From a virus, in the IMG/VR virus record IMGVR_UViG_3300048929_000309, positions 1-27,526 of that record: a stretch of DNA of 27,526 nucleotides. One strand, written 5' to 3'. The notes under the pieces were generated by a model. The model saw nothing but the letters and a program-made list of their open reading frames with translations. It made no database searches and was not told where the DNA came from. The position numbers and the translations under genes were made by a program. Shown here in pieces: positions 1-27,526 of the stretch (its first letter is position 1; each line of letters begins with the position of its first letter).

Positions 1-19
1 TGTCGTCTACTCTTTAAGT

Positions 20-124
20 TGTACGGCTTAACCGCCTGCATTAATGCCAACTTTTAGCGCACGGCTCTCTCCCAAGAGCCATTTCCCTAGACCGAATATA
101 GGAATCGTATTCGGTCTTTTTTTT
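20..124 (+). ncRNA. sdsR: SdsR (RyeB) small regulatory RNA
   Basis: The sequence from about base 28 onwards matches the SdsR/RyeB RNA as I know it: the GCCTGCATTAATGCC segment, the internal hairpin GGCTCTCTCCCAAGAGCC at 63-80, and a terminator with eight T. SdsR is a SigmaS-dependent, Hfq-binding sRNA of about 104 nt that represses several envelope and mismatch-repair mRNAs in enterobacteria. A -10 like TACTCT at 7-12 would start transcription near base 19-20, which gives the usual length. The first ~15 nt of the RNA differ from E. coli, so the 5' end is inferred. The prophage integrase ends 69 bases further right, so the insertion is at the 3' side of this gene. Confidence 0.88.
90..124 (+). 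terminator. SdsR rho-independent terminator
   Basis: GACCGAATA (90-98) pairs with TATTCGGTC (108-116) and is followed by eight T. On the opposite strand the stem is not followed by a T tract, so leftward transcripts coming from int are not obviously stopped here. The attachment core most likely lies in or just to the right of this hairpin. Confidence 0.9.
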
Positions 125-192
125 GAATATTTCTTAAATCAATAACTTATCGTTAAAACAATCACTTACATCACTTCCTGTTACCTTCAATG

Positions 193-1274: not shown

Positions 1275-1302
1275 ATTTTACTGTGTATAAAACCAGTGTA
1301 AA
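1275..1302 (-). promoter_or_regulatory. int promoter with LexA-like operator
   Basis: On the minus strand TTTACA (1302-1297) and TAAAAT (1280-1275) are separated by 16 bases, each five of six to the sigma-70 consensus. TACTGTGTATAAAACCAGTG (1279-1298, plus strand) fills the space between them. It agrees with the LexA consensus at 15 of 20 positions and closely resembles the E. coli dinI box (half-sites CTGT and CCAG, 8-base spacing). Transcription would start near 1268, 20 bases before the int ATG. LexA binding here would block RNA polymerase and make int SOS-inducible. This is a prediction from sequence. Confidence 0.6.
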
Positions 1303-1493
1303 TGTTTGTTTTCGAGTATTGTATACATCTGGCACAAACTGCTTATAATTTATTTATGATTGGGAAAAAGTATTCTTCTGTGCGGCAGTGATTAATTTTT
1401 CCCGAACCCAATCTATATTGTTAGCCTGATAATAATTCCAACATGCTGTTTTTAGATAACGTCGATCTTATTTATTTTAACTTAAGGTTTGTT

Positions 1494-2458: not shown

Positions 2459-2680
2459 TCAGTGCATTTGCAACGACTGCTGGCTATGTTTATCCGGATG
2501 TAGCTGAACAGCATGAACGGTGCCAGGTTCAACAATGATGTCCGCAATGGACTCATGCGTTTTGAACGTGCAACTGCAGTTAATGTTCTGGCACTGGTGA
2601 TAACGTTCTTTGGTATTGATGCTCAGATAACGGCTTGAACGGGCGTGTGCTGCGTGCTGGCATTTAGGGCAGTGCATCAT
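2459..2680 (-). CDS. ogr: Ogr/Delta zinc-finger late gene activator
   Basis: This 73-residue protein matches P2 Ogr (72 residues) over nearly its whole length. CPKC near the start and CQNINC about 22 residues later provide the four Cys ligands (C-X2-C...C-X4-C) of the zinc finger, and the signature HAAHARSSRY...TKERYHQCQN is present. Ogr binds about 55 bp upstream of late promoters and contacts the RNA polymerase alpha subunit to turn on head, tail and lysis genes. The ATG at 2680 follows GGTGA at a good distance and gives the family's usual N-terminus. An in-frame ATG at 2692 is possible. In P2, ogr directly follows D. Here an oppositely oriented GNAT gene separates them, so it probably needs its own promoter in the 2693-2767 region. 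Confidence 0.93.
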   Translation of the reverse strand: MMHCPKCQHAAHARSSRYLSINTKERYHQCQNINCSCTFKTHESIADIIVEPGTVHAVQLHPDKHSQQSLQMH

Positions 2681-2767
2681 AATAATCACCATGTAATCAT
2701 TTTCAATCAGATGCGGTTATTGTATATTATGATGAAAAACATACATGTGAAATTACAGTGATTTACA

Positions 2768-3322: not shown

Positions 3323-4483
3323 CTAGGAACCATCATCCTCGGCCGACTCGTAATTTATATCCGACAGCAACACCTCAAGATTCAACATCGTCACAAATCC
3401 ACTGCCGCCCAGGCTGTGTGTCACCTTGCTGATTATCCAGGGCTGCGCGTCGATCACTGACTTAAAGCCGGACACCGCCACCGGCGTCTCAGGAAATAAA
3501 TCTGCCCGCCCGCGAGCCAGAGAAATCGAGAACTCTGCGACACCGCGCTGGAGTTTGTCCCACTTCGCCTGGGCTGCCCGCATGGCGGCCTTTTGCGTGG
3601 CGTAGATGGTGGTGAGGGCAAACACGTTTTCATCGCTGCCCGCCAGGTAATCTCCCTCTTTAGCTTCCGGCGTTTTCTGCACTTTCGCGCTGGTCTTCTT
3701 CGCCTTTGGATGTTGCAGGGCACGCAGGTACTGCACTTTCGGTTTCCGCTGCACCTTCACCTTTTTTGGCTTCGGGTCTTTGGTATGCAGCCAGCTTGCC
3801 GACACGCCGGTGTATGCCCCACGGTCAGCAATATTGAACGTGTGCCCGTCGCCGTCGCTGCGGACAATCGTCATCTGCGGAATGGGCTTCCCGCTGGCGG
3901 TCTTTGCCGCACCGGGTTTGATAAACAGCAGGCTGCCCGCCTTGATGGCGACAACCGCGCCGTTCAGCTCCGCCAGGCGCGTGATAAATTTCGCGTCCGT
4001 TTCCTGGGTCTGGTCGATGTGCGACACCGGCACGCCCCTGAAAGGTTCAGCAATCGCGGGTTTGAGGTTGTTGCGCGTCGCCACGGCAGACACCACCGCT
4101 TCCAGCGTCGTGTCGTGATAGGAGTTATCACGGCGGGAATTCAGGCTGCCGCGATAGTCCGCGCTGCGGGCGCGGATGGTCAGCGTGTCCGGCGTGCCGC
4201 GATGCTCCACCTCATCCACGGTAAAGTCGCCTTTGTTCGTCAGCGCCTGGCCTTTCCAGCCGAGCGCGATATTTATCACCGCGCCGCGTGGCGGCATCTC
4301 CAGCAGGCCGTCGCTGTCGCTCAGTTCGATGTCGAGCTGGTCAGCCTCAAAGCCACGGTTGTCCGTGAGCGTGAGCGAAATCAGCCGGTTGCTGACGTCC
4401 TGCGTGATGTCCTTACCGCCGACGGTCACCGTAAAATCCGGCGCAAACTGCGCACCGGCACCGATGGTCATATCCGTAATCAC
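3323..4483 (-). CDS. D: Tail protein D (baseplate hub)
   Basis: This 386-residue protein matches P2 gpD (387 residues) throughout, with conserved blocks LISLTLTDNRGFEADQLDIE, FTVDEVEHRG, RSADYRG, SHIDQTQETDAKF and QAKWDKLQRGVAEFS. GpD forms the hub of the baseplate, the equivalent of T4 gp27, below the tape measure and on top of the spike. The start is a GTG at 4483-4481, preceded by GGGAGG with six bases between, and overlaps the TGA of U. A Lys-rich linker (about 230-275) is present as in P2. It is the last structural gene of the F-E-T-U-D transcript. Confidence 0.95.
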   Translation of the reverse strand: MITDMTIGAGAQFAPDFTVTVGGKDITQDVSNRLISLTLTDNRGFEADQLDIELSDSDGLLEMPPRGAVINIALGWKGQALTNKGDFTVDEVEHRGTPDTLTIRARSADYRGSLNSRRDNSYHDTTLEAVVSAVATRNNLKPAIAEPFRGVPVSHIDQTQETDAKFITRLAELNGAVVAIKAGSLLFIKPGAAKTASGKPIPQMTIVRSDGDGHTFNIADRGAYTGVSASWLHTKDPKPKKVKVQRKPKVQYLRALQHPKAKKTSAKVQKTPEAKEGDYLAGSDENVFALTTIYATQKAAMRAAQAKWDKLQRGVAEFSISLARGRADLFPETPVAVSGFKSVIDAQPWIISKVTHSLGGSGFVTMLNLEVLLSDINYESAEDDGS

Positions 4484-25167: not shown

Positions 25168-25857
25168 CTAGCGCTTCATTTCTTCAAGATCTTGCTTAAT
25201 TTGCAATAAGTGTTTAATCAAATCATGGATTTTTGAGCTCGGATTGTCAGTGTTGTTTTTTAATGAGGTGTTATACGCTCTCTCACTATTTTTCATCGCT
25301 GTATCAATCAATCCAGATAACTTAGTGAAAAGGCCATGTTGGCCTTTCTCATATTTTGGAATGTATTTTTTTAAATCCTGCAAAACTTGAGCGCCGGAGC
25401 TTTTTCTAGGGGTTTTTGCATATGCCTTTGTAGTATACGTATAATGTAATAATAACCAATATTCGAAGCAAGGTACTGATGATATCGCAGTGAAAACACC
25501 CTTTGGGGATTTTTTATTTATAGCATCTAGAGTTTCTAAATAGTTAGGGTGGGCGTCTCTATCTATAACACAATATACCTTGTCGAACGGAGCGCAATTA
25601 TTAACTGATGATTGATAAAGTTCCTTGGCTTTATTAAAAACACTCCGAGGATCAGATCCGCAATCTCCTGTCACTTCAATTACTTTCGCAGTTTCAAGCT
25701 TATGAAAACTTCGGCACTCCAAAAAGTAAATTGGCTCAGTTTTAGAACCTTCACAAACAATTAAGATTTTATCTAAAGAGCGTTTATTCTTCTCCTTACG
25801 AGAAAGTTCTTTGTTCTTCTTTGCTGTGCGTTTTCTAAATAAATCTTCGCTACCCAT
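25168..25857 (-). CDS. rloB: RloB-family Toprim-like protein (AbiLii-like)
   Basis: A 229-residue protein of the RloB family. The Toprim-like acidic positions are visible: Glu36 in ILIVCEGSKTEP, Asp99 and Asp101 in VYCVIDRDAH, and SSVPCFEYWLLLHY (127-139), a hallmark of RloB. The N-terminus is Lys/Arg-rich. RloB always pairs with an AAA ATPase; AbiLi/AbiLii of Lactococcus is such a pair and aborts phage infection. The nuclease role is inferred from the Toprim fold. The ATG shares one base with the rloA stop (TAATG), and GGAGG precedes it, so translation is coupled. It converges with Q, 19 bases away. AT-rich. Confidence 0.88.
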   Translation of the reverse strand: MGSEDLFRKRTAKKNKELSRKEKNKRSLDKILIVCEGSKTEPIYFLECRSFHKLETAKVIEVTGDCGSDPRSVFNKAKELYQSSVNNCAPFDKVYCVIDRDAHPNYLETLDAINKKSPKGVFTAISSVPCFEYWLLLHYTYTTKAYAKTPRKSSGAQVLQDLKKYIPKYEKGQHGLFTKLSGLIDTAMKNSERAYNTSLKNNTDNPSSKIHDLIKHLLQIKQDLEEMKR

Positions 25858-27122
25858 TAAAGGACCTCCAAGTCTTTAATAAACGGAAGTGCACCATATC
25901 TACCATCAAGATATGCAGCTTCAAGGCTTTCTCTACCTTTTCTAGGACTAAAGTCAGTGAGAGGATAGATTCTTGTTGAATTCCCTTCATCTTTCTCACA
26001 AAACCAGATTTGATCCCTTCGGAAAGTATTTTGATTTAAAATTGATGTTTCGTGAGTCGTGAAAACAAGTTGTGCATTATTTGGGTTTGTCAGAGGGTTA
26101 TTAAACAACCCTACTAAAAACTTAACAAGTTTAGGATGTAAATTATCATGAAGTTCATCGATAAAAAGAATATATCCTTTTTCTAAAGAATTAATCCACG
26201 GACCAGCGAAATTAAACAACTTCTGTGTCCCATCCGACTCCTCACCAAATCTAAATTCAATGAGTTTGCCATTTTTATTTTTATGAAAAGTCTTGATGTC
26301 AAACTTGTCAGTATCCTTCATTTTATCTAAGACGAGTTTTTTGACTTCCATTGGCATATCTTCAGGCAAATCACTTGGATCAAATTTTTCTTTTGTAACA
26401 GAAATATCATCAATTCCAACGTCGGCGGCCTTTAAAAATCGAAGAACATTATCTTTCATATCCTCAGTGCATAATTTAGCACTATAGTTGTGACTCCATC
26501 CCACCACGTTTGAAAAACGTAGTTTATTTTTAAAGAAATTAAAAATAGGAGCTAATTGTTTGCTGTTTAGCTGGACTGCAGTAGAAAGGAAAAGAGCATT
26601 TTCCCTCGTTGCATTTTGCCAAACCTGCTTTTCACCTAAGAGATAATTCCCCATATCCCAGGCGTATTCATTTTTTTCATTATCCCAGGCACGGGCAAAC
26701 CATCGTTGTGGACGACCTTTAGGATAAGCAAAAAGCCATTCATCATGAATTTTATCAAATGTGGCACTGAAGCCATATTGGTACCTAACGTTATCAATTA
26801 TAAAGGACGTTTCAAATTCACTTGGACTATTCTCAAATTCAGGGTCTAGTTTAAATGATTGAATTGGTAGTGCTTCATCATTTTGATACGTTGAAGCAGA
26901 TTCAACAACAATTTCAACCATCTTTCTTAGACTGAGCATAAAGTTGGTTTTGCCAGCAGCGTTAGGACCATAAATGACTGATGAGCGTAATAGCTCAAGA
27001 TTCGCAGGAGCATCAACTTTAATGACGTTTTCATCCAACTCTTTGTTTTTGGTAGCATTCATAGAAAAAACTTGTTTTTCAGAGATGGATAAAAAGTTTT
27101 GCACAGTGAATTCAATAAGCAT
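25857..27122 (-). CDS. rloA: RloA-family AAA/ABC-type ATPase (AbiLi-like)
   Basis: A 421-residue OLD/SMC-like ATPase. MLIEFTVQNFLSISEKQVFSM is the typical start of this family, so ATG 27122 is chosen; ATGs at 27140 and 27185 are possible. Walker A is GPNAAGKT (52-59), an ABC-like signature is SDGTQ (296-300), Walker B is ILFIDELHD (318-326, Asp322 and Glu323), and the switch His is in TTHE (357). It should sense infection and license RloB. It is the first gene of the pair; TATACT at about 27172-27177 (minus strand) may be its -10. It sits between cos and Q, a known P2 cargo hot spot. Confidence 0.9.
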   Translation of the reverse strand: MLIEFTVQNFLSISEKQVFSMNATKNKELDENVIKVDAPANLELLRSSVIYGPNAAGKTNFMLSLRKMVEIVVESASTYQNDEALPIQSFKLDPEFENSPSEFETSFIIDNVRYQYGFSATFDKIHDEWLFAYPKGRPQRWFARAWDNEKNEYAWDMGNYLLGEKQVWQNATRENALFLSTAVQLNSKQLAPIFNFFKNKLRFSNVVGWSHNYSAKLCTEDMKDNVLRFLKAADVGIDDISVTKEKFDPSDLPEDMPMEVKKLVLDKMKDTDKFDIKTFHKNKNGKLIEFRFGEESDGTQKLFNFAGPWINSLEKGYILFIDELHDNLHPKLVKFLVGLFNNPLTNPNNAQLVFTTHETSILNQNTFRRDQIWFCEKDEGNSTRIYPLTDFSPRKGRESLEAAYLDGRYGALPFIKDLEVL

Positions 27123-27278
27123 TTTTTCTCGTTTCCCCATTGTAGTTGAGATGAAAAATTCAACTAAAAAACCAGTATAGTCCATTTATTGGCTTGATTT
27201 TGACATTTTTTTCCAAAAATAGCTTTAAAATTATGTTCTACTTCGATTCAAATTATTACAAACAAAAATGTGATGAAT

Positions 27279-27491
27279 TTATGAAATTTGAGAGCCGTCG
27301 CGCAATGCTATCCCCGCCACGCCTGCCCGCTTTATAGGTCGCTTTTGATGCAGTTGCGTGATCCACTGTGATCCACGCCAGCATTGGTCTCGTGGGGGGA
27401 AAAGAGCAGGGCGATCACCATGCAAAATCATGCACTCACTGCATGCAGAGCTATCAAAGAGCGCGCGCCCGCTTTCCTGGCTATTCTTCAT
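27279..27491 (-). CDS. Possible 70-residue ORF across cos
   Basis: An ORF of 70 codons (MKNSQESGRALFDSSACSEC..., ending GIALRDGSQIS) runs over the cos site. It has no clear ribosome site, and part of its frame is set by the cos sequence itself. It may be a real small gene of the old/tin region or only the shadow of conserved cos DNA. I give it low weight. Confidence 0.25.
   Translation of the reverse strand: MKNSQESGRALFDSSACSECMILHGDRPALFPPRDQCWRGSQWITQLHQKRPIKRAGVAGIALRDGSQIS
27305..27323 (-). other. cos: cos site (packaging end)
   Basis: The minus strand reads GGCGTGGCGGGGATAGCAT, nearly the same as the 19-base P2/P4 cohesive end as I recall it (GGCG-GGCGGGGAAAGCA-). It is followed by TGCGCGACGG. 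Cos lies beyond the Q-side cargo genes, as expected. M and P should cut here. In the prophage the site is uncut and continuous. Confidence 0.8.
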
Positions 27492-27526
27492 CGTCGTAAA
27501 CAGAGAATGGTTCTGACGGCGTGTCT

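Follow-up and report, generated by a model that had tools for sequence, protein, structure and literature searches.

Each half of the integrase promoter described here has precedents: LexA acts on integron integrases (PMC3108266) and on the tum gene of phage 186, and CII acts on lambda int (PMC7708051). In 186, the SOS response induces the prophage by releasing the LexA-repressed tum gene (PMC7708051), and the antirepressor activity of PSP3 has been reported to reside in its upstream gene (PMC3121763). The 186 p95-tum promoter is similar to the arrangement studied here in that a LexA box covers a phage promoter for SOS induction, and relatives of our phage carry tumA together with such a box. 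It differs in that LexA acts on tum, while 186 int directly follows cI and has no box (best upstream score, 2.3). The 186 record also annotates ATGTTTGATTTTCAGGTTTCCAAACATC (ATGTTTG-N13-CAAACAT) as the CII site activating pE, which reads cI and then int; here the same type of operator occurs, but as a second copy at int, joined to a LexA box.

In lambda, CII directly switches on int from pI at lysogenisation (PMC7708051). A CII-activated int promoter at lysogenisation is also predicted here, but the CII proteins of lambda and 186 are unrelated. Lambda pI is not known to have a LexA operator, and lambda Int for excision comes from pL. The integron intI promoter bears an E. coli-type LexA operator directly on the promoter of a tyrosine recombinase (PMC3108266), as in the present case, but it is not a phage promoter and has neither a CII site nor coupling to an antirepressor. 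Similarly, KplE1 intS has its own, separately regulated promoter (PMC2951348), but its regulators are IntS and TorI rather than LexA. Literature matches for LexA and integrases concerned integrons (PMC3108266, PMC3948777), intS autoregulation (PMC2951348), and an integron-like element (PMC4542609). A phage integrase under LexA control was not found described in the open-access literature, and a prior description elsewhere is possible; nor did that literature yield the union of LexA and CII sites on a phage int promoter, recurrent in Peduoviridae whose int is uncoupled from the repressor.

The window, by which we mean the whole 27.5-kb virus record analyzed, begins in the host small-RNA locus SdsR/RyeB-RyeA (Table 1). 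From the left, it contains att, int (reading leftwards), a 312-aa gene (+), ogr, a GNAT acetyltransferase gene (+), and gpD. The P2-like genes for tail and head come next, then those for terminase and portal, an RloB/AAA cassette of two genes, and, at the extreme end, the final codons of tumA. The SdsR/RyeA site is occupied in 10/10 relatives tested (L002, L007, L011, L013, L016, L047, L084, L092, L107, and L120) and is known to be used by Salmonella phage PhiW104 (PMC7380047). Because integration falls within an antisense sRNA locus, these prophages may alter a host sRNA pair. Among named genomes, Rahnella has the nearest integrases (94% to 95% identity) and is the probable host genus; when the first 8 kb were compared with phage records by megablast, only ogr fragments matched. 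The 312-aa gene between int and ogr (1443-2381) has no match in Pfam, PHROGs, or PADLOC and occupies a cargo spot where relatives have other content or none. Next to the portal gene, a minus-strand cassette (25168-27185) encodes an RloB-like protein (PADLOC AbiLii) and an AAA_21 ATPase (PADLOC AbiLi, AriA-like), which probably act as a pair in anti-phage defence and occupy a cargo spot of the P2 type.

Table 1 Features of the window that bear on integrase control
Feature	Position	Strand	Details
Host attachment end	1-127		SdsR/RyeB (24-123, +) and SraC/RyeA (1-127, -); Rfam RF00111, RF00101
int, tyrosine integrase, 351 aa	193-1248	-	Reads towards att end; PF00589, PF24624, phrog_1
int ribosome-binding site	1254-1258
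Predicted int promoter	1275-1302	-	-35 TTTACA (1302-1297), spacer 16, -10 TAAAAT (1280-1275); consensus scan
Predicted LexA operator (SOS box)	1279-1298		TACTGTGTATAAAACCAGTG; spacer of int promoter; matrix score and conservation
Alternative -10 TATACA	1289-1284	-	Inside LexA box
Putative 186-type CII operator	1302-1328		ATGTATA-N13-CAAACAT on int strand; overlaps -35
ogr-like late activator	2459-2692	-	PF04606, phrog_603; int lies between ogr and att
tumA 3' end	27481-27526	-	Ends DTPSEPFSVYDDEE stop; cut by window end; aligns to tumA end of L134 and L136

A LexA matrix scan of the whole window identified a single strong site, TACTGTGTATAAAACCAGTG, at 21.3 bits, with the runner-up at 11.8. 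The matrix, which is symmetric and approximate, was built from 25 E. coli operators; scored by leave-one-out, these operators range from 7.1 to 26.1 bits (median, 18.7), a range that includes the new site. Under dinucleotide-preserving shuffling, neither the window (200 shuffles) nor the intergenic region (5,000 shuffles) ever gave an equally good site, which excludes a background-level score and indicates that base composition does not explain the site. TACTGTGTATAAAACCAGTG fits the CTGT-N8-ACAG format except that its last half-site is CCAG in place of ACAG, as in several known operators. A first-pass annotation of this DNA had placed the box at the same position, with 15 of 20 bases agreeing with the LexA consensus, and both particulars hold. 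The likeness to the dinI operator that it also proposed is surpassed by that to recN operator 1 and a colicin E1 operator, which differ from TACTGTGTATAAAACCAGTG by 2 bases each. Host genomes also carry canonical LexA sites, including TACTGTATGAGCATACAGTA, a match to the E. coli recA operator.

The box is enclosed by the promoter that had been proposed with it, TTTACA-16-TAAAAT on the minus strand, and lies between the predicted -35 and -10 elements, that is, where a bound protein would block the promoter. The -10 is 26 bp from the int ATG (1248). Relatives keep TTGA at the -35 and have a TAAATT-like -10 after the box, and the choice between TAAAAT and TATACA as the -10 in the window is uncertain.

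To follow the box beyond the window, genome and viral collections were searched for integrase relatives by protein similarity. In nearly all loci where int lies next to ogr (int identity, 71% to 99%), a LexA box of ~14 to 28 bits is kept 25 to 36 bp before the int start. In a set of 33 integrases, dereplicated at 90% identity, both triplets of the box, CTG and CAG, are invariant or almost invariant (1.8 to 2.0 bits per column), compared with ~0.1 to 0.4 bits in the distal flanks outside the promoter. An Aeromonas int (L037) with a LexA-like site of 17.6 bits 101 bp upstream was left out since the position differs. In L109, the int LexA box, ~30 bp before 8001, has one extra T (TACTGTTTTTTATATACAGTA), a natural spacing variant that should weaken LexA binding.

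The viral collection was also scanned blindly, with the composite pattern AAACATTNANNACTGN10CAGT and no information on int. This yielded at least 114 pattern sites, and among the matches listed, 105/114 have int downstream, starting ~30 bp from the box in nearly all and sharing ~54% to 100% identity with a reference integrase. The 9 listed matches without int look like chance occurrences, most of them scoring well short of genuine LexA sites; six have LexA scores of 4 to 9 bits and three have 14.6 to 16.0. The arrangement also occurs in three isolated phages, Escherichia ESSI2_ev040 (LexA box 23.2 bits, perfect CII repeat), Klebsiella 4LV2017 (21.5 bits, 3 mismatches in the CII repeat), and Yersinia vB_YenM_31.17 (26.6 bits, 1 mismatch). 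The ESSI2-type promoter region is present in 18 of 5,426 E. coli genomes.

The neighborhood of the box bears on which gene it would serve. A promoter-like sequence on the plus strand, TTGAGA-17-TATAAA (1263-1291), overlaps the box and could instead read rightwards into the divergent cargo gene at 1443-2381, and cargo genes such as those for colicins are often LexA-controlled. However, the 312-aa gene is absent from all relatives screened, while the box and its spacing to int are constant, and int is the constant neighbor in the 105/114 blind matches listed, making it very unlikely that the box belongs to the cargo gene rather than to int.

The presence of the box largely follows the position of int. 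In P2, the order is ogr - attP - int - C, where Pc precedes int and C and the two genes share a strand. The P2 layout, with int directly downstream of the repressor gene, does not occur in the window, where int lies between att and cargo/ogr, and in the complete relatives int and cI occupy opposite ends of the prophage, which would fit an inversion of the int-attP segment with respect to P2. Since int and the att end lie on the ogr side, at a distance from the repressor operon, the repressor transcript cannot supply int as it does in P2 and 186, and int needs a promoter of its own. Among homology-drawn representatives, the box accompanies a lone int in 19 of 24 cases (absent in 5) but an int fused to the upstream gene in only 2 of 43 (absent in 41). 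The Fisher test gives P = 3e-10 for this difference, a value that is indicative because related sequences are not independent. The fused loci, which with few exceptions have no box, include those of P2, 186, and PSP3. Across all 79 representatives, a gap of 78 to 80 bp separates int from the upstream gene in every boxed "fused" case except L070.

Mapped onto an integrase tree, the box undergoes 8 changes and the layout 10, with boxed integrases spread over several separate clades, which indicates more than one common origin. The LexA box is no oddity of one phage: direct LexA control had been called unusual for this phage type, and the CII+LexA composite recurs across these clades. A tree-based sign test had too few pairs for significance (median p 0.125), and nearly all differing pairs point in the same direction. 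L213, a boxed lone integrase that is sister to the unboxed fused 186/ENT90 clade, is a candidate for an ancestral or exchange state.

The box is not indispensable, since some lineages whose layout is identical or similar have lost it (L073, L074, L077, L079, L080, L082, L083, and L010). A decayed box among these lone int lineages reads GACGATTTATATACCCCGTA, and in some of them the CII repeat has decayed too. Both full records examined from box-lost lineages retain the tumA box (L128, 26.6 bits; L151, 22.0 bits). That some related lineages keep int without the box would fit a chance match or a functionless relic, a reading made extremely improbable by the matrix score, the shuffles, the conservation, and the repeated association of the box with a lone int on separate branches. 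The matrix score, position, conservation, and near one-to-one link with a separate int promoter instead strongly support the predicted LexA control of int.

Upstream of the box, boxed groups share an ATGTTTG-N12/13-CAAACAT inverted repeat that lies over the -35. A CII-type repeat with at most 3/14 mismatches is present in 32/33 boxed representatives versus 0.8% of shuffled upstream sequences. The repeat in the window has 2/14 mismatches to ATGTTTG-N13-CAAACAT; in the Rahnella group to which the window belongs, the half-site farther from the -35 (ATGTATA) is weak. Most complete relatives have the repeat at the int promoter and a second copy at the start of cII, and the gene at this second repeat is CII (PF06892). 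The cII copy is also coding sequence, so conservation there alone proves little, and more weight rests on the site annotated in 186. The window, a fragment, has no cII of its own, and a PF06892 CII gene is found in close relatives. We also considered the inverted repeat as an Ogr box and rejected this assignment, since spacing and position do not match Ogr sites, while the annotated 186 CII site matches exactly. The geometry of the CII site depends on which -10 is used: with TAAAAT, the site is centered near -47, approximately one helical turn farther upstream than at 186 pE, and with TATACA, inside the box, it roughly fits the pE geometry.

The lysogeny control region of the window phage, including its cI, cII, and tumA operator, was inferred from relatives with ~92% to 97% identity over most shared segments. 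In the complete relatives examined, the sole other consistently strong LexA box precedes a gene of 58 to 64 aa homologous to PSP3 TumA (phrog_1993; 41% identity over 53 aa), which, according to the PSP3 record, resembles the 5' end of 186 tum. L152 has a further LexA-like site (3597-3616; 19.6 bits) before an unassigned 93-aa gene, one that the other full records do not share. The repressor of the relatives is a 186/PSP3-type CI (PF07022+PF16452). The complete relatives therefore contain the 186-type SOS induction set, that is, CI and a LexA box before a tum homologue, of which the window shows only the tumA 3' end. The first-pass assignment to a P2-type phage is thus right for the structural genes, which are P2-like, and not for the control region of the near relatives, which is of the 186 type (CI, CII, and TumA) without the C repressor of P2. 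Given this control region, SOS induction itself is expected.

Temperate phages often govern int themselves, and the box sits in a phage promoter, so it might be bound by a phage-coded repressor that shares the LexA motif by chance. We rate this reading as very improbable: the CI of the relatives is not LexA-like, the motif is also that of host LexA in host genomes, and it stands before tumA as well, the 186 counterpart of which is under LexA control (PMC7708051).

Taken together, 1275-1328 is very probably a dual-control int promoter, in which a 186-type CII operator covers the -35 and an operator for host LexA covers the spacer. The first-pass annotation had recognized the LexA box and missed the adjoining CII-type operator, the tumA box of the relatives, and the position of int and att on the ogr side. 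From the two operator sequences as observed, their conservation and position, the tumA box in near relatives, and the link to layout, we infer binding by the two regulators, the direction of regulation in the window phage, and a role in excision. After infection, CII, produced only as lysogeny is being established, would activate int together with cI (from pE), leading to integration in a manner comparable to lambda pI. In the lysogen, CII would be gone and LexA would repress int. Upon DNA damage, LexA cleavage would release int and tumA at once; the TumA antirepressor would disable CI, and the released Int, needed with Cox/Apl, would serve excision, so that one signal would trigger both excision and induction.

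Alternatively, the box may be a true LexA operator that mainly tunes integration at infection, providing more Int in cells with an active SOS response, rather than powering excision. The site for the lysogeny activator on the same promoter indicates that int is clearly used at establishment, as this alternative supposes, but the only other strong conserved LexA box in complete relatives sits at tumA, the induction gene, and we regard a role confined largely to infection as unlikely. Under the preferred dual-control reading, with LexA release serving excision, Peduoviridae have probably evolved repeatedly, or exchanged as a module, an autonomous CII+LexA int promoter, through which integration and excision would be fired by opposite signals and excision synchronized with a LexA-controlled antirepressor. 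The 1-bp spacer insertion in L109 and the loss of the int box in a lineage keeping the tumA box are natural variants of this arrangement. If true, the circuit would explain how int expression is timed in P2/186-type phages whose int lies outside the repressor operon, and phage integrases would join the small number of recombinases under direct LexA control. Prophage excision would then be an SOS function in its own right, not a by-product of repressor loss.
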